Positions 2,025 to 25,802 are shown, counted from the first letter of the stretch. The stretch is 27,491 nucleotides of DNA from a virus (IMGVR_UViG_3300031974_004167:1-27491); one strand, 5' to 3'. The notes: a model not told the origin generated them from the sequence alone. Made by a program: numbers and translations.

Positions 2025-2042
2025 ATGTGATCTCCATTACTG

Positions 2043-2050
2043 TACTTATA
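2043..2050 (-). promoter_or_regulatory. Late-promoter-like box TATAAGTA
   Basis: TATAAGTA differs by one base from the T4 late consensus TATAAATA. It overlaps the TAA stop (2046-2048) of the 506-residue gene and lies 18 bases before the ATG of the 300-residue gene. It continues into CAGTAA, giving a 13-base match with one or two differences to the boxes at 8122-8135 and 25801-25814. Confidence 0.5.
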
Positions 2051-5481: not shown

Positions 5482-7502
5482 TATGCTGTTACTCCGTGAT
5501 ATATAATAAAGTTCAATGCTAAGAACGGGTTCACAACATTCATAGGCAAGTTTTGTAAGTCAACAACTCCGCCACTGGTTTCTAGTCTTGTACCAACACC
5601 GGATGTATCGCCGTTGTTTGGAACACTATCTGTTCCAGTATATGTTGCTGTGCTGGCCGCATAGTATTGATTGCCGTCGCCATCCTCAAAATCATGTTTG
5701 TGTTCAGGCAAGTTTTCTTGCTGAATAGTTACTTCTGTGCTACCGCCTATACTACCTAAGTTTCCTGTTGAGATTGCATTAGCAGATAACGATCTACCAG
5801 ACAAACTATTGTCTGTTGACATCAATGGCAGTTGCCCTCGTAAATCTGGAATTTTAAAAAATCCTGCTGTTGTAGGATTTCCATAATACCATGTGCTGCT
5901 ATTTGCAGGATCAAATCCAATAGCATTTGCCAAATCTAAGTATGTAGTCCTATCGTATTCTTCGCCATCACATATAAACCAACCTGTTGGAGCAACAGGG
6001 CCGCCGTACATGATAATTGTCCCAACTGGCATTGTATCAATGCTGCCAATTAGCTGTGCAGGAGTAGCTTTAGCTAAAACTCCACCTTGATTTACAAGTA
6101 ATTCATCTGTTGTGCGATTGATACTGCTTGCTGCTGTTTGATCGCTAATTATTGCAGGAGCAGCCTGTGTACCAAAAGTTTTTGTGCTACCGCCAGTTTG
6201 TCCATCAAATACAAAACTACTGCTGGTAATTTGTCCTGTCATAGAAAATGTAGTTGTACTGTTTAGTTTAGCTGTACTACCTGCTGTACCACTTACATTA
6301 CCTGTGACATTACCTGTTAAATTTCCAGTGATTCTATTTGCATACAATGTGTCAAAAGGCAAAACACTTGTACCGATATTTCTAGTATTTGCAATGTCTG
6401 GCAATATATTTGCCATTGTAATGTTTCCGTCGATTACTGCATTACCGCCTACATTTATATTTTTTGCAACACCAATTCCGCCAGCAACTCTCAATGCTCC
6501 TGTAGTAGGATTATTACTTTCGGTCGTTCCGTTTACTATTACTGAACTGTCTGTTTTGATGTTGCCTACAACATCTAAACTTTCTGTAGGATTTAAGTTG
6601 TTTACACCTATATTTGTGTTACTCTTTACCCTTAAAGGAACAACAAATGTACCATTATTATTTACACGCATATCTAAAGGTGCACCTGGTATAGTATTTT
6701 CTATAATACCATTGTTGCCTTCAACTAAAACACTTATTGTTTTTGCATTGCCAACTTCAATACCTTGGTTATTTTTAATTTGTAATTTTTCTGTTACCTG
6801 GTTAACAATATTATTACGCATAAAGTTTGCGGCAGGAATAGTTGCACCGCTTATCAACAGATTTTCAGCTAAATCTGCTGTTCCATTAAATTTTGCTGTA
6901 CTTAAACTTTTGTTGAAATTTATACCGACTTTAAACGGTGTTGTGCTACTATATCCTGCAAAAGGTGTTTTAGGAGAAAATTCTGTTCTTGTATAAATTG
7001 TTACAGGAATATCTTCAATATAATTTATTATTACTGTTCTAGTTACACTTGCTGTGTCAACAATTTCTTCAACCAAAGCACCACTTTTATTTCCATCGCT
7101 GTAGTTTGGTCCAACAAGTAACCAGCCGCTTCCTGTATACAAATACAACTGACTAGTGCTAGTGTTTACCCATAGATCACCTTTTACACTGTTTGCAAGT
7201 TCTGGCTCAAAACTGCCTTTTTTAAGACCTCCAGCAGCAACCCAATTTGTACCATCATAAATTTTTAATTGATCGACATCTTGTGTAGTATCGTACCATA
7301 GTTGCCCTTCAACTGGATCTGAAGGCGGACTTGCATTTGCAAAGTTTTCTAGCAAATGTAGGAAATTTTCATTTACACTTTGTCCATAGTCTGTGGTAAG
7401 CCTACCAGGTAATTTCATACTTGTTTCTGTATTGATACTGCTATCTTCTACTGTAACATTACCTTTGTTAGCCTCGTCAGTGAACGGAATATTATATGGC
7501 AT
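5481..7502 (-). CDS. Tail fibre protein with C-terminal phage tail collar domain (673 residues)
   Basis: The shared N-terminal module covers about residues 1-132 (NENFLHLLENF 44-54, GQLWYD 66-71, GDLW 108-111, LVGP 129-132). A long repetitive beta-type shaft follows, including ESLDVVGNIKTDSSVIVNG (307-325), RNIGTSVLPFDTLYA (374-388) and NLTGNVTGNVSG (394-405). The C-terminus is a recognisable tail collar domain (Pfam Phage tail collar type): MPVGTIIMYGGPVAPTGWFI (491-510) then FKIPDLRGQLPL (549-560). The LPEHKHD element (598-604) is the H-x-H type that in T4 gp12 and relatives binds metal in the trimer. This makes it the closest thing here to a short-tail-fibre protein, although it is not simply gp12. 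The ATG overlaps the previous TAA (TAATG), with GGAGG nine bases before it. Being first of the trio, it may be the ancestral copy; that is speculation. Confidence 0.92.
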   Translation of the reverse strand: MPYNIPFTDEANKGNVTVEDSSINTETSMKLPGRLTTDYGQSVNENFLHLLENFANASPPSDPVEGQLWYDTTQDVDQLKIYDGTNWVAAGGLKKGSFEPELANSVKGDLWVNTSTSQLYLYTGSGWLLVGPNYSDGNKSGALVEEIVDTASVTRTVIINYIEDIPVTIYTRTEFSPKTPFAGYSSTTPFKVGINFNKSLSTAKFNGTADLAENLLISGATIPAANFMRNNIVNQVTEKLQIKNNQGIEVGNAKTISVLVEGNNGIIENTIPGAPLDMRVNNNGTFVVPLRVKSNTNIGVNNLNPTESLDVVGNIKTDSSVIVNGTTESNNPTTGALRVAGGIGVAKNINVGGNAVIDGNITMANILPDIANTRNIGTSVLPFDTLYANRITGNLTGNVTGNVSGTAGSTAKLNSTTTFSMTGQITSSSFVFDGQTGGSTKTFGTQAAPAIISDQTAASSINRTTDELLVNQGGVLAKATPAQLIGSIDTMPVGTIIMYGGPVAPTGWFICDGEEYDRTTYLDLANAIGFDPANSSTWYYGNPTTAGFFKIPDLRGQLPLMSTDNSLSGRSLSANAISTGNLGSIGGSTEVTIQQENLPEHKHDFEDGDGNQYYAASTATYTGTDSVPNNGDTSGVGTRLETSGGVVDLQNLPMNVVNPFLALNFIIYHGVTA
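7107..7502 (-). repeat. Shared fibre N-terminal module, copy 1
   Basis: Residues 1-132 of the collar-domain fibre carry the same ordered motifs (NENF, LENF, GQLWYD, GDLW, LVGP) as the copies in the next two genes. Confidence 0.8.
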
Positions 7503-8121: not shown

Positions 8122-8135
8122 ATACTGTATTTATC
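8122..8135 (-). promoter_or_regulatory. Late-type promoter box GATAAATA with CAGTAT extension
   Basis: GATAAATA (8128-8135) overlaps the TAA stop (8131-8133) of the giant gene and continues into CAGTAT. The 13 bases after the first G are identical to those at the gp25 promoter (25801-25813). It lies 23 bases before the ATG of the 200-residue gene, so it probably drives that gene and the fibres in late infection. Confidence 0.62.
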
Positions 8136-11100
8136 GTGGTAGCGATATTGTTTTGTCTGTTATAAATTTGCAGATTTGATTTTCACTATCTGCAATAGTT
8201 TTACCTGGTTCTGTCCAAACTCTGCCTGTTTTTCTTACAACTTCTACTATTCCTCCATCTGCTGGAGCACGAATGTAATCTGCTAAAATTATTGCAACTC
8301 TAGTTTCCGAACCCCATTGAATAGTTTCCATTGTAAATTCTGGAGCAATTGTTACATCTGCTTCTGGCGAGTCTTGATCAACTGTAGGATCAAATGTAGT
8401 AATACTATCTTTACGTAATTTGGTACCTAAGAAATAAACATCAAATTCATTTACACTAGTAGGTGTCCAATCCAACAAGAATTGTTTTGTACTGCTATCA
8501 CCAATAAATTTGGTACTATGAATTTCATCTTTGTAAGGAATATTTTCTTCAATGCCTTGACCAATTACTTTTGTATTCACTGGATAAGATTCTTTTATTC
8601 CTGTTCCTAATGTACCTCTGCGTATTTGTCTTAAAATATTACCATCAACTGCAAAATATTCAATGCGCTCTTTATCTATATAAACCACTCCAGGCAATCC
8701 TATTGCTCTGTTAGGAGATTGAATTCCTGTTGCATCTTTTAATTGAATTGTTTGATCATAATAATTCAATGGTTGCTGCAATTCATATTCATTATCATTA
8801 TTTAGACGCTTGTAATGATATCTGCCAATAATATCTTTGAATATTCTAAATCCAAATTTTGGTTTACTAGTAGGTGCAGCAAATTGTAAGACATCAATTT
8901 TATCGTTTGGTAAAACTTTTTCATAAAGTTGTATACCGTCTTTTTTATCTACAATTTTATAATCTTTCTGCGGTACAAGTATAATACCATTTTTAAACAC
9001 CCAGACATAATTTGCACTAATTGCAGGTTGCTGTAATTTTACGTAACCTGTAGACAATAAGTTTTTATCAATGTATTCTTGTGAGCCTTCTGGTGCTTGG
9101 TTTGTATTCCATACAACGTCATAACTGTTTCTTTCAAACTCATTTATGTCGTGATTACTAAATGTATAAATGTTTACTGTTTCCCATGCTTCTGGTGCTT
9201 CTAACAAACACAGTGTATTTGTTTCAGTTAGTTTTACATCTAATAATTTTAGGTTTGCTGTGCTGTCATCATTTAAAATCATTTCAGGTGTGTCATCGAT
9301 ACTTTTCAGTTGGAATAGATCTCTTACATAACCTTGTAATTCTACAACAGCATCAACACCATCGTATCTAAAACTTTCAACTTTTGCATTTACAATTGTA
9401 CTATCATCAGTTAGTCTAAATGATACATTAGAATTTTGCGGAATAGTTTCAATTGCACTTCCATTTTCAACAGTAACAGTAGTATTAAAGAAGAAATATT
9501 CTGCATCTCTAATAATAAAGATTTCTAGTTTATCACCTGGCAATCCAATGTTGTTTGACAATATTTCAACACGACCATTCAATGGATCATAGTTCCAATT
9601 TATATCTTCTAGTATTTCTCCGTTGATGTATACAATAACATCACTGCTGTTTACCAATGTTGTATCTTCAAACTGCCATGCATCAATATCATAATCACGT
9701 TGTACAGTCATTATATAGGATTTTCTGTATCCTGGATTTAAGAATCTAGATCCTTTGCTTCTTTGTACGAGTATGTTATGCGAATATGGTTTTTTAACAA
9801 ACGGTACTGCTACATCATTCTCAAATCTGTGTACAGTGTTATCTCCGTCAACAATCATAGTTTTATCAATAACCATTTCACTAAATTGATTTATTTTATC
9901 ACTGTATACAGTATAACCAATTATTGTGCCTGCTTCTGGTGCAGTTGGAAATTCTAAAACGCCAAATCCTGCTGCGTTAGTATCGTATCCATACTGTGTA
10001 GCCGGCTCTTGTTTTACACCATTTAAGGTAACAAATGTGCTTTGATCAGTTGTAAATCTTATAGGCAATTCTAATGTACGTGAGCCGCCTGTTGCTACTA
10101 TATTGTCACTGTCAATAATGTCAACACCGTTTGCTCCAATACTTAGAATACTTAAATTTTTACCTGCATCAATTACACTACTATCAGCTAGACTAATAAA
10201 TTTACCTTCGTAATCTACATTTAAATCACTGTGTGCTACAACTTCACCATCTATAGTAACAATTATTGTATTTTGTGTTTGAGGAAATAAATCAAATCCC
10301 CACTCAAGTGTTACTCCATCTGTTATATAATTTCTAACTGAAATAATACCTTGTCCTTGACTTACACGATTGTAAATTGTCATATCTAGTGTATCTAAAA
10401 CTTGTCCAGGAACTTGTTCTTCAGGCCCTTTACTTGTAGTTTCAGTAACAAATCCGTCGCCGTCTACAGCAATTTCACCCGGATCGATACCCAAAGCAGA
10501 TGTATTTTCAAAACTACCGCCTTGTAAACTTACATCAAATGCTGTGCTTTCAGGAGTAAACGATCCGTCACTTGTGCTCTTACGTACAACGACAACATCG
10601 TCTTGCTGTGTAACAATTACATCACTGTCTAAGAAAACAGATTTTGTTATACCATCGCCTACCGGAGATACCATTTTAGCATTTGGATTTACACCAGGAG
10701 CAGGGTAGCTAGGATCATCTATTCTTACGTTGTTTAAATATACGTTATAAATAACACCTGCTTCGAGTTCTTTTTCTAATTCGACAATTTGAGTACTGCC
10801 ATCTAACACAATAATTTCATCTTCGTTTGCTGTATCAAATGTATCAAAATCTACACCAAAGCCTTGTAAATCCCAGCCTAAACTTTCGCCAAAGCCAATG
10901 CTGTCCATTTGAACGCCACCGTAATCAATACCATCCATCAACTGAGCAAGATCTTTACCTGGCATACCAGTTGTTGGGTTATAGAAGAAATTGATTCTAT
11001 CTGCTGCTGTAAGTAATTCGGTTGATTTTTTATAATTTATTACAACTTCAGCATTGTTAGCTGGAGCATTTGTAAATGTAATTCTTCCTGTATATCTTTC

Positions 11101-14100
11101 AAAACTACGTGTTTTGTCTAATTCATTAGAAATACTAAAATCGCTTATAAGCTGGTCAACTCCATCAACAGTAATAGAAATATCTGCACTACGTGTACTT
11201 GCTGGCCATTTAAGATTAAATTCTGTCAATCCGCCATTGCCTAAGAATGTTTCTGTTTCATCTAATGTAGTAAACAAGTAATTGCCAGAAACCCTATCGA
11301 ATTTCATACGCATGTGTGTATTGCGCACAAGGTTGTTTCCGATAATTGCATACACAATTGCTTCTTCGCCATCTTCTGCTAAACTACCATTGATTGTTAC
11401 AGTAGGAGTGTTGAAATATTTTGCACCTGTGGTGTTTACTTCGATGTAACTGATACTATCTCCGCCTAAGTAAGCTAAACCTTCTAAAGTAGGGCCACCG
11501 CCTCCACTTACAGTAACATTTGCTGTATTGGTATATCCACTACCGCCACTGTAAATTACAAATTCTTTAATTTCAAAACCAACGTTGTCATACCAGTTAC
11601 GTTTTGGATATGTAAGAACATCAGCATCAACATTTACCAATTGATTATTTACAAATTTTATTGCCTCAGGAACTACTGTACCTAATTCTGGATCATAGCT
11701 TGGAGGCAAATCAAAGTCTGTTACATTAGTTTGTGTTGGTTCAATTTTTTCATATGCACTGATATATTCACGTACTTTTGCACTGAAAGGTTTTACTTCA
11801 TTTATATACTCTTGATAATTAGGAAGATTATCATTTTGGTATGTAATTTTTTGTTCAAGTTCACCAACATTGTGTTTTGCAGTTACAAAACTAGACTTGA
11901 AAATCCAATCAACATCAATTTGTTCACTGATAGCATACCGAATGCTACTAAAGAATAACTTATTCCATTCAACTTCAAGCTGATCTACAAATAAATTTTC
12001 TTCAATTGTTTTTAGAATAATTCTAATTTCTTCGCTAGGCTCTCTATCGTAAAAACTAGTATCGTAAATAAGTTTGTCATATCCAGTAGTATCACTCTGG
12101 TACAATTGACTACTAAATTGTATTGTACCATTTTGTCTACCAATAGATTTATAATTTACAGTATAATCTACATTTGGTTGATTGTCAATCTTTTCTAATA
12201 ATAACCATCCGCCTGTGCCAATTGTTTCAATTTTTACTACACTGCCAATTCTGTCTGGTGTACCTTCTAATGCATATGCACCTGGTATAATAAAGTTTAT
12301 AGCAGTTTCTGCATTATATCCTTCAGCATACCAGTCTTTGTATTCCCAATAAAGAGATACATCATAATCCTGTATTTGATTTCTAAACCATTCGCCGGTG
12401 CTGCTGATCCAATTGTATATTGCCCAGAAGCCGCCTATGTCACTGTCATTTTTTACTAGAACACTAAATGGACGTACAATCAATACTGTATTATCTAAAT
12501 AATTTTTACCACTGTTTACAATTTCTACACTTGTAATTTGTCCTAAATTATTGATATATGTTTTAATTTCTGCATCTGTTCCTGTACCTTCAATGGTTAC
12601 AGTTGGGCCGTGTCTTGTTGAACCACCGTTGTAGTTACTGTCAACATATCCTCTGCCAGGATTAGTAATTGCAACTTCTGTGATACGTCCATCTACTATA
12701 GTTGGAGTAAGAACAGCCTGTTCAATTTTTGCTGTACCAATAAATCTCAGCAGCGATTCGCTTTCAATTTCTTTGTCCCAATGGTTAGAAAATTTAGAAG
12801 GCAATGGATCAACTTGCATCAATGGTGAAATATCAAATTCATCTACTACAACATATTCAGTAAGAATACCGTTTACTCTTTCAATAATTTGTTTTAGAGC
12901 CTCTTTACGGTTTACAAACATACTCTGATTTGGTTCATTTAAAATACCAAAACGTCTAGCAATACTAACTCTTGTATCAGGCAATTGAATATTTTGCTCA
13001 TTGTAACCTACCAAACTGTCTACCCATTTGTCAACTATATCTTTATTAGGTTTGCTACTTGCTAAACCTTCAGTTAGCAATTGATATTCACTATGAATAT
13101 TTTGTATTTGTTCATCAGTTGTATAATAATCAATGTGCAATACTGTGTCTTTGTCTTTTATAAGATTTCTAACATTGTGTAACGCAAAGTTTTTACTATC
13201 AAATAGATTTACAAATCTATATCCTTGACTTGCTGGATCTCTAATTAAATTTTCTACATCCAAAGCACTAATTTTTCTACCATATGTGTTAGGTAGTGTT
13301 GTTTTAGATTTAACCCAGAAATAGTATTTGCTAGACGCTGCACCAGTGATTGGATCATATGAATTTTGTATTGAATATGTATCATCTCCATATAAACTTA
13401 AACCACTTATACCTTCTGATAACCCTTCAGTTGTGTCTGCAATTGTATCCCATTCACTTGGCAAGTAATCACTTTCCACCCATTCATAAACATCTACATC
13501 AAATCCCGGAATAATTTGGTTCCAGTTATTAGTTTTGTATTGTATATCTCCTTGATAAGGATTGTACCATTTTACGGTGTTTAGATTCCACCAAAGTTTT
13601 CCTACATAGTTTGTAGACCAGACATCTTTATCTCCAGTATCTGTTGAACCTGTGTTATACACTGCTGGATCATAGTATAATTTAAAACTTAGTTCTTGCT
13701 CTGCTGGGCCTGCAATACGTCCTTGAATAGGATCAATATAATCTATATAACTAATAAGATCTTTAGTTTTTGTATCATATAACCAGACACCTTTGATTTT
13801 ACTTAGATCAACAAATGGATTTACACTACTGTTTATTGTCCATGCGTTTGCATTTATATTAGCTCTATAATCTTGTATAATGCCTTTGTTATTTGTACTA
13901 TCACCTAGTATAATTGTAAGATCCTGTGCTGGCGCTACAAGATAAAGATGATTTCTATTCAAATATCCAAACGCATTTTTTGAACCTGTAATATCTGTGT
14001 CTGAATATAATTTTTCTGCATATACCAATTGATTGCTAATGTCTTCGAATATATAAATTTGTCTGTTGTCTTCAACAGTATCTACAATACTGGTAGCTGC

Positions 14101-17100
14101 ATTATCAAATATTGTTGCGCCATTGTCAAATGTTACAAATGATTCTGTATCTCCACGCTCACTAGTAATTGCAAGACGTGAATCGTCCAAGTCTACATAA
14201 ACACCAAAACGATTGTTTTTCTCTCCGTCTGGAGAAAATAATTCTTGGTCTAATACAAATTGCTGATTTGATAATTTATAAACATATACTTTACCATTTA
14301 AAATACCATTTTCGTTAGAATTAGGAGCGCCAATTGCAAGTTTATTTCCTACACTGTTTAAAGACACACTATTGCCAAAATACTCGTCATCAACTGGACT
14401 GTCAATATTTTGAGCAAAGACATATCTATCATTTTCTTTTCTATAAATTGCAACTCTATATTCGTCGCCTGATAATACACCTGACAGTGCAACGACTTCG
14501 CCATTTGCACTTATATCAAATGTAACACCTACATCAGTAGCTAAACCAAAACCGCTACTATCCTCATTATATAAATCAGTTGTATCGCTTAAATCGCTTG
14601 TTAAATATCCTGTGTAATCTACAAATGTATCTAACAAAGTCCATAAACTTGTATCAAAAGGATTTCCAGGAAACACGGTTTGATTTGCTTGATACAAATT
14701 GCCTTCGTAATATACAATTTCATTTTCTATATATTTTGCAATAGTTTGCCATTCGCCTCTATAATTTGAATCTATATTATAAGCATATTCCTCAATGTCA
14801 TCTTTTCCGCCATTGTTTATAATATAAACTCTACCATTATCAGCTAAACTTCTCACGAATAAACTATGATCAAAATCTCCAGGAGAGACTGATTTAATAC
14901 CTAATCCAAATTTTTCATTATTGCCCGGAGCACTACTACAAATTATATCAATAAGTTCAAAGCTATTATCAATCAGCTTTTTATAGATATAAACTACGCC
15001 TTGTTCTGTATATCCTAAATCAGTAGCAGCAGGATCTGCTTTAATAATATTTACACGCTGCCAATCCTGGCTTTCTAAATTGATCGTACTACTTTCAACT
15101 GTTACAGTTCTAAGTGCTTGCCATAGTACACCTTTGCTGCTTACAATATCACCTTGATCGTATTCTTGTAATGGATCAAGAGCGCCTTTATATCTAGATT
15201 TTACATTACTTGCAGTAGGTGCACCTACATATAAGTATTGACCATTTGGAGTTAAAGATACGCTACTACCAAAATCGCCACCAGTATGATATTGAGGCAA
15301 GGGTAACAAAGTTTGTTTGATAGTAAATGGAAGAGCATCGCTTGCTCTTGTGTAAATGTAAACTTTACCATCATCCAAGTCAGGTGTACCAACAGCCATT
15401 ATAGTGTTATTGTAACTTGCAGATACGCTTCTACCAAATTCATTACTGCTTTCTTCTGGCGCTGTAATGTTTTGTAATTTAGTGCGAATTATTTTATTAT
15501 CAAATACAGCACTAACACCGTCGCCGATGTCATCTATCCAAAGTCTGTCTTGATTTAAGTCGTATGCTTTTAAAATAGAATTAGAATCTTTTGGTTGATT
15601 AAATCTACGAGATTTAAATTCAGTAACAATGCCTAGTGTACTATCTTCAACGTTGATTATACTTTCACTAATAGGGTTATCTGTTTCGATTTCAATGTTG
15701 GGTTGCGTGATAGAACTATCATTATTTTCTATAATGTTTCTTTGCACATTTGTTACTAACCAGAAACCATCAATGTCTGGATGAATGTTATTCACACCAA
15801 TAATAGAATCTTCTGCAAAATTTATAGGTTTATTGAAATACATTTTAAAACCTAAATCAGTGCTTTCTACTCTAGTAACTGCAATATCTGCAAGCACATG
15901 TCTATATACATTCCAACTTGTTCCATCTGTAGGAACCCATACATAAGAACCTATATCAACAGAAGCAATATCAACTGTTAGAATATCTTCAATTACTTTT
16001 GCTAAGAAATCAATTTGTTCTAATTTTACATATCCTGCTGTTTTTGTATATTCATTTACCGCATTTAATGTAGGCAAAAATCCTGTGTCATAATTTGACG
16101 GAGCAATAAGAACATCAGATCTAGGATATTGATATACTAGGTCAGTTCTTGTTTGATCGATTTGATTTACTAGTTGTAATGTCTGAGGTTCTATTCTAAA
16201 TTGTTTTTCATCTAATTTAAATTCTACTTCATCAAAACTAGTAAGTGCGCCGTACTGGCCGACCCTAATTGCCCATTCTTCGAATAATTCAACACTGTCT
16301 TTATTAGCACTACCTAACTTATCGAAAAGTTTTGTAATACTATTCGCAGTACCTTTATCTTGTATAAATCCTTGATAGAATTTATATTGGCTTACATCGT
16401 CTTGAATAATATTAGACAAATAATTACGTTTTTGATAACCTATTAAATGTTGCGCAAGACGCTGCTGTTCTGCGTCAAAGTTATCAGTATCTAAATCATA
16501 AAAGTCAGCAAATTGATTTGCACGATAATCCCAGTTAGGTTGTAATTTATTTTCAGGCTTTTCTGGCAAACGTGACCATAAATCAAAATCAAAGTTTTCA
16601 GTACCGCTGTGTGTAAACTGAGCAGCATAATAAAATTCTTTGAATTTAACCAATTCGCCAACTGTGTAATCTTTATATGATTCCCATTCTGTAATACGAG
16701 CATCATCATATAGGAAACCTGGAATATTTAAACTACCGTTCCATTCGTCAGTTCTATATCCAACAACTTTTAAACGCTGCTGTCTATAACCAGTGTTTAA
16801 ACTATAGATTGTATCATTAAATACTGTTATATTATCTATGAACACAACATGTTCTTTTTGTATTAGTGGTAATTTAATTAAAAAGATTCCATCCTCAGAA
16901 GAAGTCAACTGAAAATTGTTTATGTTGTCTCTGTACACATTAAAGAATGCTCTATTTAATTTTTTATTGTTTTGATTTAGTATTGGATAATTGTAGAAAC
17001 TATCAAACACATCATCAACAACATAATATTCTTTAGAAAATAAAATATTATTTGCTGCTGGACTCAATGTAATAATACTGCTTGATGCCCAATTTTGTGT

Positions 17101-20100
17101 TGTCCAGAACATAAATTCTTTTGCTGCTAATTTCCAATTTTCAATAGCTTCGGTTTGTTTATTGAAATAATCAAATACAAAGCCTTCATCTATCATGTGC
17201 TTTTCGTAACCTAACAAAAAGTCAACAACTGTTTGTACATCTGGAAAAATTGTGCCATAATCTAATTGAGAAGGTAATCTTTCATATCTTTTTCTAAACT
17301 TGACATTTACACCGCCTATTTCAGGTAATCTTGGAAGTTTAGTATATTTGGTATCGTCAAAAATATCTGTAGATGTATGGTTTACCTTAGCTCTATAATA
17401 CACATCATTGTATTGAACAATTTTTCCAGCAATATAGGTTTTGTTTTCGCTCCACGTTGCAAAACTTTCACTTATACCACCTACATTTACATTAGGATCA
17501 TTTGCAGATTCGATAGCTTTGTAATATGTAAAATACGGCGAGGCTACATCATAGCCAGAAATTTTAAAACCTCTGCCTGTTTTTTCTACAATAACACCAC
17601 TGTAAGTAACAACTTTTTGCGGAGCACTGGTTCTAAATGTTAAATTATAGTTTTCAAAAGGTACAAATACATTACCTTGATTTAAAGGTGTTTTACTGTC
17701 TAAAACTAATTTTAATTTGTCTTTGTTTGCAAAACCTGCAAGTTTAAATCCTAATTTATTTTTAATATTTGTAATATTAGATATGTATTTGCTATATGTA
17801 AACTCATTGTTTAAACTAATATACTCAGAAATATAATTTACTAAGCCGCCTGCGATGTTTCCATTTATTTTTGGAAACACAATGTCTTTGGTAGTAATTC
17901 TTTTATCGGTATCTTTGTAAACAAAATTACCTGCTATATTTCTTACCACACGTGATCTATCATACCCTATACCAATAGTGTGTGCAGGACGTAATAGCAC
18001 CATTGCTACTAATAATGCAAATGGATAATCACTGCTGCGTCTCCATGCAGTTTCTTCAGGTGCATGGTCGCCAAATTTAAAAGGAATATTTCTTTGTATA
18101 GAATAACTGAAGTTTTGAGCAAATCCGCTTTCTAAAGGAGATAGTAACTGTCCATTTTCATTTACCGGAATATGGCTTAGGAGTTTGCTTCTAATATATT
18201 TGCTTTTTATAACAACTGGCTTACCTGGTTCTCTAACAGCACCATTTTGCAAATCTGTCCATAGTATCAAGTTGTTGCTTGTATAAGGAGCAGGACCATA
18301 AACACTTTCCCACCATGTAGGCTGCGATGCAAATCCTAACATCTCCCAAGGATGTGTATGAGGACGATCTGTATCAAATGCTTCAATATAAACACCTCTC
18401 CAAAATCCTGGCAGATTTTGATTATTTAAATTTACAGACCTACTATAGTTATATGTGAAACTAGCGTCTAATCTATTGAAACTATTGTCGGTATAATCAT
18501 TTATTTTTGCAACATCCAACCATTTTACAAAATCTGTAATAATAATATTGTCAATATTGCTTTTTGAGATTTTTGTATCTCTATTCAATCCGCCAACAAT
18601 ATCGTGAATATCAAATATGTTTGTATCATATTCAATTTTAAGATTATTGTAAATTCTTTTTTCTAATTCTAATATTAAATCATCACGATAATCATCATAG
18701 GCAATCATCATACTGCCATCATGTCCGCGAATAACATTCAATGGACCAGTGTTAGGAATTACATCTCCGTTTTCATCATATTGTACTTGATATGTTGTAT
18801 CTAAAAACTTTTCAGGTTTGAATGCAGGATACAATCCAATTTTAGTTGGTGTAGGAGGAATAAAACTTCCTTCTGTATTTGCATACTCTTGAATTTTGAT
18901 AACATCGCCGGTTTCAAACTCTTTAAGAATTGTAACAAATCCTGTATCAGAAAAAGTATAATCATAACCGTGTATCAGTTGTTTGTCGTTTATATAAACG
19001 TATACGGCTGTGTTACTAATCTCATTTTTTAGAAATACTTTGCTTAGAGCATATGTTTTTAAACGATTGTCTAAAACATTATATTCAATTTCTACACTAC
19101 CGCCAGTACCTGCCATATCTGTGCTGTAAAAATTCATTGTTTGAACTTTGTCTGCATTTAGTGTATTAAAAATATAATCTACATGTTCTTTTACTGTACC
19201 TTCAAAAAAATCATCTGTAGCAATTTGTATAAATTGTCTTTTAAACTTTTGATATTCATTTGAAGCAAATCTAAGAGATTTAATAACATTAGCATCTTTT
19301 GATACTAAATTATACATAGATAAATTGATAGGTCCACTATGTTGAATAAACTTTCTGCCGTATTCTGCTACGTAACCTAAATCTCTTAAATTACTTACAC
19401 CAGGCTGTACACCCTGAAAACCATCCAGTTCGCTAATCAATCCTTCTACATGATCGTTTACTTCGCCTAATGTAAATTCAGAGATGTTACTGTTTAACGG
19501 ATTTCTTTCTAAGTTATAAGGTATTTCATAATAACCATTTGCATTCTTATCTGCATTACTATGTGTTTTTATAACAACGATATCGGTAAATTCTAAATTG
19601 TTTGTAAACACAATCTTTTTAACATTATTTTCATTTTGTAATGTATAATCAATACCCTGTGTTTTAAATAAACTGTTTACATAAACTTTAACTTTTAAGT
19701 CAGTTAAATTGCCGCTATTGTTATAAACATCGATAGGAAAATTATTTGTAAATTCAGACCCTGTAAATTTTCTAACTACCGATTGTTGTGATTTAACTGT
19801 TGCTTTTTTCCATGCATTTACAAATTCGTCTTTTTGATTTTTGTATTTCTTTAAGAATAAGGTATCGCTAGAAATCTTTACAAAATCATTATTTACTTTA
19901 TAGTTGTATGTTTTGTTCAATAAAGGAAAATCGAAAACAATGTCGCCTATGTTTACAAAGTTTTTGTATGTAAGAGGAAATCCTAATTCGTTGTCAACAG
20001 CACCTTCGCCTACACGATAATTAAAAATTCTGTTTCCAACAAATTCTGTGCTATCATAAATGGTGCTATCACCTATACTGTTTCCTTCGTTGTCAAACAA

Positions 20101-21849
20101 GTCAAATTTTGGAGATTGATTCAATCCTGATTTATCTTGTGCCTTGTTCCATTGTGTACCATCATACCAATACATACAACCAGCATTTACATCACCATCT
20201 AATATTAAAATTGTTTCATTTTCTAAAGGCACACTATCAGCAGTTTCAACTAAACTAATCTGTAAATTGTTATTATGTGTAATGAAGTTTACTTGATAAA
20301 TTTTGCCGTTGACAAGACTATCTGGATCTGCTGTAAACAAAACACGCATACCATCTGCTAAATCAACGCCATCAACATTATAACCTACACTGCCTTCTAT
20401 TGTGCTAAAAACATCAGGTGTAAAGGTATCAACTAGATCAACTGCTGCTTTTGCATTATTACCATGATTGAACAAACGCAAGTCTGGTTCAAATTCTATA
20501 ATAGGTCTACGTGCTCTTAAATCTTCAAAAATTTCTATTGGCTGATTATTGATTTCTGCAGATTTTTCAATTACACTACGGTGTGTCCATCTGTTATATC
20601 TACTCCATGGATTTTTACTTTTATCTCTACGATTTATACAGACATAGTCCTTTGTGCCTGCAAAACTTTTTGCATCACCAAATGGTACACGGTCAAAAGG
20701 ATTTATATCAAAAGGTACTTGTGTATCTTGTGTGAAAATTGCAGGAACTTGTAAATCTTTTACTGCAATCAATTCAATGCTTTCGCCTACACCTTCGATA
20801 TAATATAAACCTTGTGCATAAGATTCGGGCGTCACATTGCCTTGAAAATAGATTTTCATACCATTTGAAAACTCCCAGCCATCGGCTGTTTTATAAGTTT
20901 TCTTGCCAATAATTTCTTCTTCTACATCAATTGCTGTTGCTTCTTCAATATCAAATAAATTTAATGCGCCGCTGACATTTATATCGTTTTGACTGATATA
21001 ATACAAATTATTAGGAGCATTTGTAGGAACAGTAAATTCTAAAATACCTTTTTCTACAAACCCTTCACTAACATAATCTTCTCTAAATATTACAGTATCA
21101 TCATATTGTTCTGTAATTTCTACACCTTCTAAATACAAATTTTCTGCATATTCTGTGCTGTCTGCATATGGAATATTTTTTAATCTGCTTAGTGCAATAC
21201 CAAAAGGATGTCCAGGCGTGTCTACTTCAAATCTGTATGTTTGACCTCTATATAGTTTGAGTGTTTTATTACGAGTTACACCATCTGGTGAAAATACAAA
21301 TGCAGTATCTCCGCCATCAACCTCTGTTGTAACTTTGTATGTACTAACAACATCAATGCCTGTACCTCTTACAGGAACTTCTTGTGGACCATTTGGTAAC
21401 CAATAGTATTCACGGAAGTTTGTAAACTTGTCAAAATCAATGTGTGGGTTCCAAGCATAAAATTCTTGTGCAAACAATTGATCATGGTTTTTTGTACTAC
21501 CGCCAAATGCTTCAATTTGTCCAAGCAGATCAACATAATCTGCGTTAAATTCTACATTACCAATGTTGTCTTCAATAATAGTATAAGGTTCTAATTGATA
21601 ATCTTCACGTTGTTTGTTTACGTCAGAAATATAATTATCTTCAACAACTGCTGCTTTGGCTTCTCTGCTACCAACAAATCCATTTAATTTTTCAACAACA
21701 CCAGGCGATGTAAGTTGATCTAATGTACTACCAATAAATTTCTTGTTGGTATCGGTACGAAAATATCTTGGTAATAATGAAGATGTAGTTCTTTTACTAT
21801 CATTACGTCCTGGAACAGGATATTCGTTTTGATTGTCTTCGTATGCCAT
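8131..21849 (-). CDS. Giant modular baseplate/virion structural protein, 4572 residues
   Basis: One uninterrupted frame of 13.7 kb follows gp6 in a TAATG overlap, with AAGGA upstream. The N-terminus (1-160; SLLPRYFRTDTNKKFIGSTL at 24-43, then FREYYWLPNGP) matches a family I recall from marine T4-like phages. Visible modules by residue: cupredoxin-like fold 195-300 without copper ligands; hairpin adhesin modules about 690-770 and 925-990; a conserved RGHDGS block (1041-1046) and a Trp/Pro/His-rich block (1159-1190); CBM5/12-like modules at 1465-1506, 1721-1763, 2222-2268 and 2366-2407; seven FG-GAP-like blades 2138-2640; two GxGY repeats (3053-3127, 3425-3505); and a run of beta-rich modules to the C-terminus. 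The position equals T4 gene 7 (gp7 has 1032 residues), so a wedge role is inferred. It has no enzyme motif, signal peptide or membrane span that I can see. Probably it joins baseplate scaffold and glycan binding. Confidence 0.9.
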   Translation of the reverse strand: MAYEDNQNEYPVPGRNDSKRTTSSLLPRYFRTDTNKKFIGSTLDQLTSPGVVEKLNGFVGSREAKAAVVEDNYISDVNKQREDYQLEPYTIIEDNIGNVEFNADYVDLLGQIEAFGGSTKNHDQLFAQEFYAWNPHIDFDKFTNFREYYWLPNGPQEVPVRGTGIDVVSTYKVTTEVDGGDTAFVFSPDGVTRNKTLKLYRGQTYRFEVDTPGHPFGIALSRLKNIPYADSTEYAENLYLEGVEITEQYDDTVIFREDYVSEGFVEKGILEFTVPTNAPNNLYYISQNDINVSGALNLFDIEEATAIDVEEEIIGKKTYKTADGWEFSNGMKIYFQGNVTPESYAQGLYYIEGVGESIELIAVKDLQVPAIFTQDTQVPFDINPFDRVPFGDAKSFAGTKDYVCINRRDKSKNPWSRYNRWTHRSVIEKSAEINNQPIEIFEDLRARRPIIEFEPDLRLFNHGNNAKAAVDLVDTFTPDVFSTIEGSVGYNVDGVDLADGMRVLFTADPDSLVNGKIYQVNFITHNNNLQISLVETADSVPLENETILILDGDVNAGCMYWYDGTQWNKAQDKSGLNQSPKFDLFDNEGNSIGDSTIYDSTEFVGNRIFNYRVGEGAVDNELGFPLTYKNFVNIGDIVFDFPLLNKTYNYKVNNDFVKISSDTLFLKKYKNQKDEFVNAWKKATVKSQQSVVRKFTGSEFTNNFPIDVYNNSGNLTDLKVKVYVNSLFKTQGIDYTLQNENNVKKIVFTNNLEFTDIVVIKTHSNADKNANGYYEIPYNLERNPLNSNISEFTLGEVNDHVEGLISELDGFQGVQPGVSNLRDLGYVAEYGRKFIQHSGPINLSMYNLVSKDANVIKSLRFASNEYQKFKRQFIQIATDDFFEGTVKEHVDYIFNTLNADKVQTMNFYSTDMAGTGGSVEIEYNVLDNRLKTYALSKVFLKNEISNTAVYVYINDKQLIHGYDYTFSDTGFVTILKEFETGDVIKIQEYANTEGSFIPPTPTKIGLYPAFKPEKFLDTTYQVQYDENGDVIPNTGPLNVIRGHDGSMMIAYDDYRDDLILELEKRIYNNLKIEYDTNIFDIHDIVGGLNRDTKISKSNIDNIIITDFVKWLDVAKINDYTDNSFNRLDASFTYNYSRSVNLNNQNLPGFWRGVYIEAFDTDRPHTHPWEMLGFASQPTWWESVYGPAPYTSNNLILWTDLQNGAVREPGKPVVIKSKYIRSKLLSHIPVNENGQLLSPLESGFAQNFSYSIQRNIPFKFGDHAPEETAWRRSSDYPFALLVAMVLLRPAHTIGIGYDRSRVVRNIAGNFVYKDTDKRITTKDIVFPKINGNIAGGLVNYISEYISLNNEFTYSKYISNITNIKNKLGFKLAGFANKDKLKLVLDSKTPLNQGNVFVPFENYNLTFRTSAPQKVVTYSGVIVEKTGRGFKISGYDVASPYFTYYKAIESANDPNVNVGGISESFATWSENKTYIAGKIVQYNDVYYRAKVNHTSTDIFDDTKYTKLPRLPEIGGVNVKFRKRYERLPSQLDYGTIFPDVQTVVDFLLGYEKHMIDEGFVFDYFNKQTEAIENWKLAAKEFMFWTTQNWASSSIITLSPAANNILFSKEYYVVDDVFDSFYNYPILNQNNKKLNRAFFNVYRDNINNFQLTSSEDGIFLIKLPLIQKEHVVFIDNITVFNDTIYSLNTGYRQQRLKVVGYRTDEWNGSLNIPGFLYDDARITEWESYKDYTVGELVKFKEFYYAAQFTHSGTENFDFDLWSRLPEKPENKLQPNWDYRANQFADFYDLDTDNFDAEQQRLAQHLIGYQKRNYLSNIIQDDVSQYKFYQGFIQDKGTANSITKLFDKLGSANKDSVELFEEWAIRVGQYGALTSFDEVEFKLDEKQFRIEPQTLQLVNQIDQTRTDLVYQYPRSDVLIAPSNYDTGFLPTLNAVNEYTKTAGYVKLEQIDFLAKVIEDILTVDIASVDIGSYVWVPTDGTSWNVYRHVLADIAVTRVESTDLGFKMYFNKPINFAEDSIIGVNNIHPDIDGFWLVTNVQRNIIENNDSSITQPNIEIETDNPISESIINVEDSTLGIVTEFKSRRFNQPKDSNSILKAYDLNQDRLWIDDIGDGVSAVFDNKIIRTKLQNITAPEESSNEFGRSVSASYNNTIMAVGTPDLDDGKVYIYTRASDALPFTIKQTLLPLPQYHTGGDFGSSVSLTPNGQYLYVGAPTASNVKSRYKGALDPLQEYDQGDIVSSKGVLWQALRTVTVESSTINLESQDWQRVNIIKADPAATDLGYTEQGVVYIYKKLIDNSFELIDIICSSAPGNNEKFGLGIKSVSPGDFDHSLFVRSLADNGRVYIINNGGKDDIEEYAYNIDSNYRGEWQTIAKYIENEIVYYEGNLYQANQTVFPGNPFDTSLWTLLDTFVDYTGYLTSDLSDTTDLYNEDSSGFGLATDVGVTFDISANGEVVALSGVLSGDEYRVAIYRKENDRYVFAQNIDSPVDDEYFGNSVSLNSVGNKLAIGAPNSNENGILNGKVYVYKLSNQQFVLDQELFSPDGEKNNRFGVYVDLDDSRLAITSERGDTESFVTFDNGATIFDNAATSIVDTVEDNRQIYIFEDISNQLVYAEKLYSDTDITGSKNAFGYLNRNHLYLVAPAQDLTIILGDSTNNKGIIQDYRANINANAWTINSSVNPFVDLSKIKGVWLYDTKTKDLISYIDYIDPIQGRIAGPAEQELSFKLYYDPAVYNTGSTDTGDKDVWSTNYVGKLWWNLNTVKWYNPYQGDIQYKTNNWNQIIPGFDVDVYEWVESDYLPSEWDTIADTTEGLSEGISGLSLYGDDTYSIQNSYDPITGAASSKYYFWVKSKTTLPNTYGRKISALDVENLIRDPASQGYRFVNLFDSKNFALHNVRNLIKDKDTVLHIDYYTTDEQIQNIHSEYQLLTEGLASSKPNKDIVDKWVDSLVGYNEQNIQLPDTRVSIARRFGILNEPNQSMFVNRKEALKQIIERVNGILTEYVVVDEFDISPLMQVDPLPSKFSNHWDKEIESESLLRFIGTAKIEQAVLTPTIVDGRITEVAITNPGRGYVDSNYNGGSTRHGPTVTIEGTGTDAEIKTYINNLGQITSVEIVNSGKNYLDNTVLIVRPFSVLVKNDSDIGGFWAIYNWISSTGEWFRNQIQDYDVSLYWEYKDWYAEGYNAETAINFIIPGAYALEGTPDRIGSVVKIETIGTGGWLLLEKIDNQPNVDYTVNYKSIGRQNGTIQFSSQLYQSDTTGYDKLIYDTSFYDREPSEEIRIILKTIEENLFVDQLEVEWNKLFFSSIRYAISEQIDVDWIFKSSFVTAKHNVGELEQKITYQNDNLPNYQEYINEVKPFSAKVREYISAYEKIEPTQTNVTDFDLPPSYDPELGTVVPEAIKFVNNQLVNVDADVLTYPKRNWYDNVGFEIKEFVIYSGGSGYTNTANVTVSGGGGPTLEGLAYLGGDSISYIEVNTTGAKYFNTPTVTINGSLAEDGEEAIVYAIIGNNLVRNTHMRMKFDRVSGNYLFTTLDETETFLGNGGLTEFNLKWPASTRSADISITVDGVDQLISDFSISNELDKTRSFERYTGRITFTNAPANNAEVVINYKKSTELLTAADRINFFYNPTTGMPGKDLAQLMDGIDYGGVQMDSIGFGESLGWDLQGFGVDFDTFDTANEDEIIVLDGSTQIVELEKELEAGVIYNVYLNNVRIDDPSYPAPGVNPNAKMVSPVGDGITKSVFLDSDVIVTQQDDVVVVRKSTSDGSFTPESTAFDVSLQGGSFENTSALGIDPGEIAVDGDGFVTETTSKGPEEQVPGQVLDTLDMTIYNRVSQGQGIISVRNYITDGVTLEWGFDLFPQTQNTIIVTIDGEVVAHSDLNVDYEGKFISLADSSVIDAGKNLSILSIGANGVDIIDSDNIVATGGSRTLELPIRFTTDQSTFVTLNGVKQEPATQYGYDTNAAGFGVLEFPTAPEAGTIIGYTVYSDKINQFSEMVIDKTMIVDGDNTVHRFENDVAVPFVKKPYSHNILVQRSKGSRFLNPGYRKSYIMTVQRDYDIDAWQFEDTTLVNSSDVIVYINGEILEDINWNYDPLNGRVEILSNNIGLPGDKLEIFIIRDAEYFFFNTTVTVENGSAIETIPQNSNVSFRLTDDSTIVNAKVESFRYDGVDAVVELQGYVRDLFQLKSIDDTPEMILNDDSTANLKLLDVKLTETNTLCLLEAPEAWETVNIYTFSNHDINEFERNSYDVVWNTNQAPEGSQEYIDKNLLSTGYVKLQQPAISANYVWVFKNGIILVPQKDYKIVDKKDGIQLYEKVLPNDKIDVLQFAAPTSKPKFGFRIFKDIIGRYHYKRLNNDNEYELQQPLNYYDQTIQLKDATGIQSPNRAIGLPGVVYIDKERIEYFAVDGNILRQIRRGTLGTGIKESYPVNTKVIGQGIEENIPYKDEIHSTKFIGDSSTKQFLLDWTPTSVNEFDVYFLGTKLRKDSITTFDPTVDQDSPEADVTIAPEFTMETIQWGSETRVAIILADYIRAPADGGIVEVVRKTGRVWTEPGKTIADSENQICKFITDKTISLPR
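8134..11262 (-). repeat. Giant protein C-terminal array of beta-rich adhesin-like modules
   Basis: Residues about 3530-4572. A pattern recurs: G(D/N)G/S-x-T-x-x-F-x-L, then a strand such as ISITVDGVDQ, TIIVTIDGEVV, TFVTLNGVKQ, VIVYINGEIL, YVWVFKNGII or FDVYFLGTKL, then a hairpin and a strand ending in (A/P)-x-N/G-x-V-x-I. At least six copies can be seen by eye (start near 3535, 3840, 3920, 4060, 4280 and 4448), and two further copies lie near residues 690 and 925. Such tandem beta-sandwich or hairpin modules are usual in adhesins and fibre shafts. Confidence 0.55.
11335..11577 (-). repeat. GxGY repeat module, copy 2 (giant protein residues 3425-3505)
   Basis: The block reads EIKEFVIYSGGSGYTNTANV, a V-x-V-S-G-G-G turn, then a second half with ISYIEVNTTGAKYFNTPTVT. 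Each half follows the scheme I-x-x-(V/I)-x-(V/I)-x3-G-x-x-Y, a turn, then (P/N)-x-V-x-(I/V). The same scheme appears at 12469-12693. Confidence 0.6.
12469..12693 (-). repeat. GxGY repeat module, copy 1 (giant protein residues 3053-3127)
   Basis: This block has GRITEVAITNPGRGYVDSNY, then GPTVTIEGTG, then the second half GQITSVEIVNSGKNYLDNTV. It has the same two-half layout as 11335-11577. Such GxGY...P-x-V-x-I repeats are common in large phage structural proteins and adhesins. Confidence 0.6.
14629..14754 (-). other. CBM5/12-like module 4, between propeller blades 3 and 4
   Basis: Giant protein residues 2366-2407: EWQTIAKYIENEIVYYEGNL, then YQANQ, P-x-x-x-P-x-D and a closing W-x-x-L. This follows the scheme W-x5-Y-x3-x-x-V-x-Y-x-x-x-x-Y-x-A-x(10-18)-W/Y-x-x-L of small chitin/cellulose-binding modules. 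Confidence 0.55.
15046..15186 (-). other. CBM5/12-like module 3, inserted inside propeller blade 2
   Basis: Giant protein residues 2222-2268: LDPLQEYDQGDIVSSKGVLW, QALRT, then the closing DWQRV. It lies between the VGAP strand and the GVVYIY strand of one blade, so it is an insertion into a propeller loop. The first Trp of the scheme is replaced by Leu. Confidence 0.5.
16561..16689 (-). other. CBM5/12-like module 2
   Basis: Giant protein residues 1721-1763: EWESYKDYTVGELVKFKEFY, YAAQF, then the closing LWSRLP. It is a close match to the W...Y..G..V.....YY.A.......W..LP scheme and to module 1. Confidence 0.6.
17332..17457 (-). other. CBM5/12-like module 1
   Basis: Giant protein residues 1465-1506: TWSENKTYIAGKIVQYNDVY, YRAKVNH, then the closing KYTKLP. 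It follows the same scheme as module 2 at 16561-16689, including G-x-x-V, YY-x-A and the closing aromatic-x-x-LP. Confidence 0.6.
20950..21267 (-). other. Cupredoxin-like domain of the giant protein without copper ligands
   Basis: Residues about 195-300 read KLYRGQTYRFEVDTPGHPFG (198-217), a long insert, then LEFTVPTNAPNNLYYIS (270-286) followed by NVSGALN. This is the strand pattern of plastocyanin-type domains (G-x-x-Y-x-F, GHPF, then LYYxC..H..M-x-G). The positions of the ligand Cys, His and Met are filled by Ser, Asn and Ser, so copper binding is unlikely even though GHPF keeps one His. Confidence 0.5.
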
Positions 21850-24800
21850 TAGTAATCATTTCCTTCGGTAATAATATTTGTATTTGTAGGTGAACTTTGA
21901 ATGCCTGTGTTTAACACATCATCACTTGTAATCACAGTTCCAGTTGCTTTTAAACGTGCAGCAGTAATACTATCAATCACTTCTACGTCATCTACATTTG
22001 CTGCATTTACAAAAATTTCATCGTTTTCACAAACTATTTCATACAAGCTGCCAAACACTTGTGTTTCGCTTTTTGGTACAAGAACTATACTTGCTGCATC
22101 TGGAGATACTTGCGTCATTACATATGCTGCTAATTCACTAAAATAAAATGTTTCTCCAAAATCCCAATTTTCTAAACTAAAGTATTGATTTATTGCATCA
22201 ATTACTCTTGATTTGATATCATTGTCGTTTACAACTCTGCCTGTATTTTTTACAATTTTAATTGTTGCTTGTAAATCATCTTCTGCTAAATTACCAAACA
22301 GTGGTTTGTATTTTACAGGATGATAAATCAATTCGTCTGATATACTTTTAATTTTTTTAATATCTTGTCCATAATTCAAATATAGAGCATCACTGCTTGG
22401 CGGTAATGGTTTTTCAACTAAATCACCTTTTAGATATTTTCTAAATTCAATATCGTATGTTTTTTCAAGCAAATATAAATCGATAATATTACTGCTACTT
22501 GGATCTATTCTGCGATTTTCTGCTGCGGCATGTTTATAATTAAATCTTAAATTGTCTCTACCTTTGTAAGCACGCCAATTTATATCTAATTCTAAACCAG
22601 TCATTGTTGCATTTATTTTTTTAAACACATCTTTACTGCTTATATAAAAAACTTCATCACCTGTATAGTTACTAAATGCACCTATAGCACCTTCTGTATT
22701 TTTTACTAAAATATTATTATTTTCCGCATTTGCATATTCATAAGTTTCTACATCATTCTTTAAAACTTTTTTTGCAAAAACATATTTTGTATCAGGCAGA
22801 TAATCTGGAGCAACAATTTGGGTAAAAATATCAGGATCGTCAATAACACCATCTGCATCTGTATCAACAAATCCTATTTCTAATTTTTTGCTGTCTACAT
22901 AACCAGCTGCTGATCTATATGCTGAAATAACTTGCCATTTCCAATCTTGTGTAAAATTAGTCAAGTTATCTGGAATATTGTTATTACTCAAAACGTCTAT
23001 TGTGTCTGTAACAATTTTTCCTGTTTTACTATCATAAATTCTATCATTGCCATCAAAGTAAAAACGTATTTGCTCATCGCTTTCAAAAACATATCTTAGT
23101 CCTCTGTGAGTAACAGTATATGTTTCGCCATTTGTTTCAAACAAGAAAATCCAACTACTATCCTGATTAGTACCTGTTGCATCGCCTGCACGACCTGTGC
23201 TAAAATCACCTGTTTTATCAAGGTTAGTACTTGTAATAACTTTCCAATTTGATGTTTCTACATCATAACGCAATCCAAATGTTTTATAGCTAAATGTTTG
23301 ATCAACCATTTGAGATAATGTATCTGCTACAATACCTAGATTTAGCACAGAAATAATTTCAGCTATTTGTGCACCTTCTGGTATATTTTCATTTAAAATA
23401 ACTGGGCCTAAATCACTGTCAATATCTTGCACTGTTCCATTTTCAAATACACTTACTACTTTTGTCCAAACATAGGTTTTATCTCCTAGTTTATTTGGTG
23501 TACCAGAAACTAAATTATTTTTCTTATCAAAATAATGTCCACTTGGCGCAATAAATTTAATTAAACTTCCAGGTGAAACAAATCGCATAATACTTGCTGT
23601 AAAACTGCTTACTGCGACAGGAATGTTAAATTGGTCTTGGAATATTCCTGAACTTTGATTTGTATCATTTGTAGTTGGCTTCCAAGTAAAGTTTAAATCT
23701 TCTACACTGGTATTTCTATCAAAATATTTGTAATAGAAATTTTTAGTTTGTGTATGTTTGATGATTTCTAAAACTTTTGAATTTATAACTGCTTCAATAT
23801 CAGTTCTAGTTGTAAATCCAAAACTGAATTTTTTTGCTAAATCTTCACTGTAAATGCTACCGTCATCTCCAAACATTAGTGTGTTACTGTATTTGCCTGT
23901 TGCATCACGTAAATCATAATAACGACTAATACCACTGCTGGTTCTGTTGATAGATTTTGTTTTTATAATTTGTTGACTTACTCCTAGAGGACCAATATTG
24001 TAGTCTTCGCCTGTAATAAGTCTATTTTGTGTATAGAATGTACTAGGAGCATTTGTTTTGATACTTTCATTTGTTTCACTGCTATCTGCATTTGAAACAG
24101 GCGATTGTAAATCTAAAACTAAATTTAGTGTTTCGTTGGTTCCATTTTTACTCAAATAAGGAACCTGTATTTGAATACCTACTAAATCACTAGGATTGAT
24201 TTTGTATTGTTCGTTTGCACTGGTTCTATAATATACTTTAAAACTGCCTTTTGGTAAAGTTCCAAAAACACCGTCACTGAAAATTAAACTGATACGGTCA
24301 CTGATTCTACTCAGCACACCGTAAATGTCTCTAACGCCTTTTTCAATACTGTTATATACAATATTGTTACCTTCTACATTGCTTACCTTTGTCCAAAGAT
24401 CTTGTTCAAATCCGTTGCTGTCTAGTTTGTATAACCAAACATCAGTCTCGTTTACATTATCAGTATCAATGTTTACTGTTGTATTTGGTACTGGATTGTC
24501 AATAGCAAATACATTGTTTTTTAGAGTACCTTGTCTAAAATGGAAAAAGAATCCACTGTTTGCACTACCGGCACCTTGACCGCTGTCTCTATATAGAAAT
24601 GCAAGTTTGTTTCCAGGAAACGGTTCTTCTTCATATATAAAATTATCAGCGGTATCAATACCAGCACTGGTTATTTCAAATTTTCTACTTTTGTTATCAA
24701 CAGTTTTTGTAAAACTAAACACAGGTATATCTGTATTGGTTCCATTAAATCTATACTGCTCTGTAACTATGCCATCAACGATTGATTTTTTTACAGGACG

Positions 24801-25364: not shown

Positions 25365-25802
25365 TTAAAGAAGACCGTTGTTTTGGTCAAATTTTATGCG
25401 CATTGTTTCACTAATGCTGTAGGGAAGATATGTAATACTGCAATCTACTTGCAAGCCACTTTCGTAGGTATCAACTGTGACAGAATTTACATTTATACGG
25501 GGATCATAATTTATAACTTCAGTAATATCTTTGATGATAAGTTCTTTTAAATCCTCTGTAAATGGCTCAAATAGTACATCCCAAATCACAGTGCCAAATT
25601 GTGGATTTTCAAGTTTTTCGCCTTTGCGAATATGAAAATGATTTATTACATCCTGTTTGATTATTTCTAAATCAAACAAGTTAAATCCACGTGGATTGGC
25701 TACAGTACTAATACCTCTGTATTGCTTGCTGATTACAGGAGCTTCTTCTCCAGGAGAAGATATTGTTACATTTTTATAAAGTGGTTTTTCATTTGTAGCC
25801 AT
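25365..25802 (-). CDS. 25: Baseplate wedge protein gp25 (145 residues)
   Basis: gp25 is the small wedge protein that, with gp6 and gp53, forms the core bundle contacting the hub and priming sheath assembly; it is homologous to TssE of type VI secretion and W of P2. Recognisable here: a GISTVANPRGFNLFDLEIIK segment (30-49), HIRKGEKLENPQFGTVIWD (57-75), LFEPFTED (77-84), and VINYDPRINVNSVTV (96-110). The last corresponds to the NYEPRI region of T4 gp25, with DPR (100-102) in place of the usual EPR. Its length is near the 132 residues of T4 gp25, with a slightly longer N-terminus. No Shine-Dalgarno precedes the ATG at 25800-25802; a TATAAATA box lies four bases upstream instead. Identity is confident from motif order and from gp6 directly downstream. 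Confidence 0.95.
   Translation of the reverse strand: MATNEKPLYKNVTISSPGEEAPVISKQYRGISTVANPRGFNLFDLEIIKQDVINHFHIRKGEKLENPQFGTVIWDVLFEPFTEDLKELIIKDITEVINYDPRINVNSVTVDTYESGLQVDCSITYLPYSISETMRIKFDQNNGLL

Follow-up and report, generated by a model that had tools for sequence, protein, structure and literature searches.

The viral record IMGVR_UViG_3300031974_004167 (27491 bases, about 34% GC; this whole stretch is referred to here as the window) raises the question of what an integrin-like repeat is doing inside a phage tail protein. On its minus strand, a gp25-like and a gp6-like gene are followed by an open reading frame (ORF) of 4572 residues and then by tail proteins, including one with a collar domain, and seven segments beginning with FG lie within this giant ORF. 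An earlier note made from the sequence had read these segments, at 13930-15438, as an integrin-like seven-bladed FG-GAP propeller inside a phage baseplate protein. We find it nearly certain, as regards the fold alone, that residues about 2101-2662 are a seven-bladed FG-GAP propeller; the domain is an FG-GAP propeller and not an integrin. Taken as a whole, the explanation that we lean towards, with moderate confidence, is that it serves as a platform for an accessory adhesion or docking contact.

The seven FG starts are residues 2138, 2193, 2314, 2434, 2491, 2548 and 2627, and nucleotides 15438..13930 correspond exactly to residues 2138-2640 on the minus strand, the plus strand being full of stops in this region. 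The positions given earlier, for which no strand was named, were therefore exact, while the extent was slightly short, as probable closing strands lie upstream at about 2100-2131 and the last strand reaches about 2662. FG dipeptides occur 7 times in this 503-residue block and 9 times in the other 4069 residues (1.1 expected in the block; Poisson P(>=7) 1.6e-4), a clustering that makes a chance origin unlikely. The Pfam family FG-GAP_2 (PF14312) matched the block with 67.2 bits against a cut-off of 23 (E=1.4e-18), and also matches relatives of the block. It had further been claimed that several segments keep both characteristic strands, and this is correct: blades 1, 2 and 5 each show a clear V/I-G-A-P-like strand, whereas blades 3, 4, 6 and 7 are degenerate (LFVRS, VALSG, LAITS and YLVAP).

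Searching the PDB with the single block sequence (phmmer) gave nothing useful. We collected relatives of the block from viral contigs into a 32-sequence alignment, which was used for both a profile search and structure prediction. Against all PDB sequences, this profile matched integrin alpha-4 (3.3e-7), alpha-6 (3.4e-6) and alpha-L (0.011). Blades were counted with a locally built hidden Markov model (HMM), which in the window's own group detects mainly blades 1, 2, 5 and 6; the remaining blades of this group are degenerate, and their assignment draws on the FG starts and the predicted model. In a more distant group, seven separate matches to the blade HMM were found in 23 of 57 loci. Loci L121 and L143 carry seven clear FG-GAP repeats in a compact arrangement, and L022 likewise has seven blade matches.

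AlphaFold2 run with the 32-sequence alignment gave a confident model (predicted local distance difference test score, pLDDT, 84.6; predicted template modelling score, pTM, 0.86), in which the strands read as four per FG unit, consistent with seven four-stranded blades. A prediction from the single sequence (pLDDT 30, pTM 0.20) was discarded. The predicted elements are listed here, where strand positions are in model numbering, to which 2091 is added to obtain the protein residue number.

13864..15549, minus strand: whole FG-GAP propeller with probable closing strands, residues about 2101-2662 (AlphaFold2 strands, alignments)
15460..15516, minus strand: N-terminal strands, residues about 2112-2130, which would complete blade 7 as a velcro (model strands 23-27 and 32-37)
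15274..15438, minus strand: blade 1, residues 2138-2192 (FG-GAP_2 23.3 bits, blade HMM, model); predicted strands 50-53, 59-64, 70-76, 85-90
14911..15273, minus strand: blade 2, residues 2193-2313, split between strands two and three by module 1 (FG start, alignment, model); predicted strands 105-108, 114-119, 193-200, 206-212
14551..14910, minus strand: blade 3, residues 2314-2433, with module 2 after its third/fourth strand (FG start, model); predicted strands 226-230, 238-243, 249-255, 264-266
14380..14550, minus strand: blade 4, residues 2434-2490 (FG start, model); predicted strands 348-355, 361-368, 372-381, 384-392
14209..14379, minus strand: blade 5, residues 2491-2547, the most canonical (FG-GAP_2 27.3 bits, E=1.3e-7; blade HMM 73 bits; model); predicted strands 403-406, 412-417, 428-436, 439-447
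13972..14208, minus strand: blade 6, residues 2548-2626, with a long hairpin (FG-GAP_2, blade HMM, model); predicted strands 460-464, 467-480, 498-513, 516-524
13864..13971, minus strand: blade 7, residues 2627-2662, three strands with a fourth proposed from the N-terminal segment (FG start, model); predicted strands 536-540, 543-552, 564-571, with the putative N-terminal strand 32-37

From the order of the strands in the model, the ring would be closed by the N-terminal strands. When the model was compared with the PDB by Foldseek, the first 15 matches by E-value were integrin alpha chains (best E=8.8e-11), and chains of propeller size (4wk2_A and 9dia_A) had a template modelling (TM) score, normalised to the target, of 0.59-0.60; many of the best matches in BFVD were viral FG-GAP proteins. 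Structure prediction, structural comparison and FG-GAP profile search, the three checks that had been suggested for the integrin-like seven-bladed fold, thus agree with one another and with the idea. The likeness to the integrin alpha head (alpha-4, alpha-6, alpha-M, alpha-5) comprises seven FG-GAP-type blades, profile similarity, the best fold matches in the PDB, and loops around blades 2-4 that accommodate additional domains. The two differ in that the window's propeller is embedded in a phage virion protein, with flanks homologous to phage virion proteins, and in the kind of its two inserts. Neither the integrin calcium loop DxDxDGxxD (sought as D.D.DG) nor a relaxed variant of it was found in residues 2138-2640, and no integrin Pfam match was obtained across the 4572-residue protein that would correspond to the alpha-I/MIDAS, thigh, calf or transmembrane parts.

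The inserts, which were absent from the earlier note, are two modules in blades 2 and 3 resembling carbohydrate-binding modules (CBMs) of family CBM_5/12 (PF02839). This family scored 30.9 bits on the propeller block against a cut-off of 26.2, and 53 bits on the whole protein, which contains four such modules:

15040..15198, minus strand: CBM_5/12-like module 1, residues 2218-2270, nested in blade 2 (PF02839; local CBM HMM 81.7 bits)
14626..14775, minus strand: CBM_5/12-like module 2, residues 2359-2408, between blades 3 and 4 (PF02839; local CBM HMM 90.2 bits)
17323..17475, minus strand: CBM_5/12-like module outside the propeller, residues 1459-1509 (Pfam, local CBM HMM)
16555..16689, minus strand: CBM_5/12-like module outside the propeller, residues 1721-1765 (local CBM HMM)

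Cultured homologues also have CBM-like matches in the region corresponding to residues 1721-1765. One seed of the local CBM HMM was wrongly delimited (residues 1753-1802), yet the HMM placed the module at 1721-1765. In the profile search, module 2 matched a tail spike (8fqc) and a tail fibre (9rkv) in the PDB. The propeller region spans about 1000-1180 residues in L018-L020 and most of L065-L103, as against 550-660 otherwise, and in the cases inspected among these long propellers the roughly 500 extra residues lie at the module 1 site in blade 2. A second graft site on the propeller is found between blades 1 and 2, where L055:8066-10018 and similar loci (e.g., L048 and L057) carry roughly 70-100 extra residues matching Pfam E1_FCCH (E=4.6e-8 in L055). 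In L016 and L017, about 26 residues are added within blade 6, these relatives being otherwise about 74% identical.

We then asked how widely the propeller occurs. A scan with the downstream flank matched at least 538 viral stretches, from which 80 loci were fetched. At least three blade matches were present in 74 of the 74 fetched loci having at least 1000 residues upstream and in 57 of 57 loci of the distant group, which gives about 130 uncultured loci with a propeller; several of these share a contig or lie on almost identical ones, and the scans (80 and 57 loci) overlap in part, so that the counts are not independent. Searches of the collection may also miss entries that lie very close to the genome of the window itself. 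The cultured homologues of the giant protein are those of PA5oct, Paride, SCTP-2, Atu_ph07, RaK2 and CBB. The blade HMM had zero matches in the homologues of SCTP-2, Paride and Atu_ph07, and the residues between flanking matches number 104 in Paride (697 in the window), 213 in RaK2 (785), 240 in CBB (812) and 400, with no blades, in SCTP-2 (684). A tblastn search of cultured phages with the propeller gave no match other than a weak one to a separate FG-GAP protein of phage Phosso. Viral contigs scanned with the SCTP-2 flank yielded no loci, and a search of the S-TIM5 genome did not locate its protein H6WG31. In the Atu_ph07 giant (L014) the region is filled in another way: its central counterpart, at residues about 1700-3100, comprises about 1500 residues rich in glycine repeats (GxGY...P.V), with no blade matches.

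That the propeller lies inside a phage baseplate protein, as had been claimed, finds good support in the order of the genes and in the detection of homologues of the giant when virions were analysed by mass spectrometry. The genes concerned are:

8131..21849, minus strand: giant protein P0001, 4572 residues, carrier of the propeller (phrog_10938 'virion structural protein', E=0, 1060 bits)
21849..25313, minus strand: gp6-like baseplate wedge protein, 1154 residues (phrog_10646 E=1e-294; phrog_219 E=2.7e-17)
25365..25802, minus strand: gp25-like baseplate wedge protein, 145 residues (phrog_261, phrog_43)
5481..7502, minus strand: tail fibre/collar protein, downstream of the giant gene (PF07484 Collar E=1.4e-11)

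The gp25-like and gp6-like genes and then the giant ORF follow the order of T4 genes 6-7, and the gp6-like and giant genes overlap by one base. The giant thus resembles the T4 baseplate wedge initiator gp7 in lying directly after gp6 with an overlapping start; it is four times larger and shows no detectable profile similarity to gp7 by PDB profile, tblastn or hhalign (E 0.43 and 0.29, probability 0.1-0.2%), so that the description can go no further than 'gp7 position'. Among the homologues, PA5oct EST35_0128 is marked as detected by electrospray tandem mass spectrometry (ESI-MS/MS) and adjoins a 'baseplate wedge' gene, and CBB_236 was represented by 21 peptides in the virion (PMC5259590). The phAPEC6 protein gp245 (381.88 kDa), which adjoins the baseplate wedge protein gp244, was detected with 17 unique peptides (PMC7247149) and is probably the same protein, based on its size and gene order.

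Considering these data together, we propose that residues about 2101-2662 would fold into a single closed beta-propeller of seven blades and of the FG-GAP (integrin-alpha) type. The cultured jumbo-phage homologues have nothing, or unrelated sequence, at this site. The two CBM_5/12-like modules are grafts on the propeller, the first in the loop that joins strands two and three of blade 2 and the second between blades 3 and 4. In propellers, the loops joining second and third strands share one face with the inter-blade loops, and in integrins this top face binds ligand and has the alpha-I domain inserted near it. By this standard topology, both inserts should project from the one face that is equivalent to the integrin ligand face. 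The propeller could then be a rigid platform, exposed at the periphery of the baseplate wedge, presenting the CBM-like modules (with the roughly 500 further residues in relatives) either to the surface of the host or to a partner in the tail fibre, and during adsorption this may provide an accessory contact for adhesion or docking. Adhesion or docking is favoured by the absence of the domain from cultured homologues, the occurrence of related modules in phage spikes and fibres, and the variable inserts at one site. That the window's two inserts are conserved about as well as the blades also counts for the proposal. Whether the propeller itself contacts the host we judge to be an evenly balanced matter. 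A broader idea, that in a widespread group of uncultured T4-like phages the integrin-type propeller is a modular adhesion head, a conserved platform with varied modules (CBM-like domains, insertions of about 500 residues) on its ligand face, forming a host-contact layer distinct from a tail fibre, is offered tentatively, as we think it somewhat improbable in this general form.

Several observations weigh against this proposal. The query-normalised TM score to integrins is 0.45-0.48, with a root-mean-square deviation of about 8-10 Å, the low score being partly due to inclusion of the CBM inserts in the query. Inspection of the insert sequences, LWQALRTVTVESS and LYQANQTVFPGN, revealed in neither the WW-type exposed aromatic motif that is a trait of chitin-binding CBM5/12 modules; sugar binding is therefore not established, and the label of chitin binding was rejected. 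The inserts are 67.5% and 62.2% conserved among 19 closer relatives, as compared with 50.8-72.2% for pieces of the blades, and such conservation among close relatives, as opposed to hypervariability, would suit structural function no less than receptor binding. Separate tail-fibre genes are also present downstream, and their products could be what binds the receptor.

The main rival is a docking role of a purely structural kind: the propeller may be a scaffold that holds wedge proteins or the tail fibre within the baseplate and never contacts the host. Besides the conservation of propeller and inserts, this would fit the location of the host protein within a wedge gene cluster and the common use of propellers as protein-docking platforms. 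However, the homologues of the PA5oct type, CBB and RaK2 lack the domain, indicating that it is not core to the baseplate, and the wide variation in insert size within a single blade points to a surface that is exposed; we consider the scaffold unlikely, if still a serious contender. Less probable again, and to our minds distinctly so, is a CBM-decorated head for glycan recognition or carbohydrate processing, either lectin-like or enzymatic in the manner of glycoside-hydrolase propellers. The CBM_5/12 matches, the related modules in spikes and fibres, and the presence of the GH74 propeller 6p2k among the Foldseek matches (at low TM) speak for such a head, whereas Pfam revealed zero catalytic family matches, the inserts are missing the chitin-type aromatic residues, and the compact L121 and L143 keep the propeller without CBM inserts. 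Chance resemblance of the FG segments in an ordinary beta-rich tail domain, to which the four degenerate blades and the poor single-sequence prediction might point, is exceedingly improbable, being already contradicted by the agreement of Pfam, PDB profile, alignment-based AlphaFold2 and Foldseek and by the seven separate repeats in divergent relatives. The propeller may, as had been suggested, be a new part for receptor binding or scaffolding.

None of the components is new, whether FG-GAP propellers, CBM_5/12 modules or the giant virion protein, and phages were already known to encode FG-GAP proteins; what is new is the combination of an integrin-type seven-bladed propeller with CBM-like inserts in the baseplate-cluster giant of a large uncultured group. 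FG-GAP_2 proteins of giant viruses and uncultured Caudovirales (e.g., A0A6J5S3H5) belong to the same repeat family and have a similar fold in BFVD, but are other proteins, whereas the window's propeller is an internal domain of a 4572-residue baseplate-cluster protein. Among cultured jumbo phages, Sinorhizobium phage Phosso (XYS97267.1) and Agrobacterium phage Atu_ph07 ('hemagglutinin') have FG-GAP_2 proteins, encoded in both cases by separate genes rather than the gp6-adjacent giant, that of Phosso being a long multi-repeat array with LamG. The Phosso genome (L104, PV764938.1) has 42 FG-GAP_2 matches in about four proteins, including an array of 3.7 thousand residues with LamG-type domains near its end. 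The giants of PHROG 10938 (PA5oct EST35_0128, CBB_236, RaK2 ORF070, SCTP-2 gp140) show homology along most of the N-terminal 1900 residues and again after the propeller, and occupy the same position after a gp6-like gene, but have no propeller. The propeller of the S. aureus phage phi11 receptor-binding protein is five-bladed and not of the FG-GAP type. The phi11 protein (PMC4901313) and the SU10 nozzle (PMC9509320) are reported as beta-propellers in phage tail parts, in other proteins and other tail types. We found no paper describing FG-GAP propellers in phage baseplates in the literature searched, which leaves out most subscription journals. For a phage group represented here by metagenome contigs alone, the propeller gives the protein that is largest and least understood a recognizable, testable domain. 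All uncultured relatives sampled have it and the cultured homologues lack it at the same site, so that it marks where the giant carries an adhesion-type fold, and it provides a handle on how host contact may be made by such phages.

A T4-type gp23 capsid gene is present in six of eight large related contigs. The gene psbA, sought as a host marker in eight related contigs, was absent, and no host was inferred. The three successive tail proteins encoded on the minus strand at 2046-3566, 3598-5481 and 5481-7502 have related N-terminal segments of about 90 residues, with phrog_15511 and phrog_14394 matching all three, and this common segment is perhaps an attachment module.

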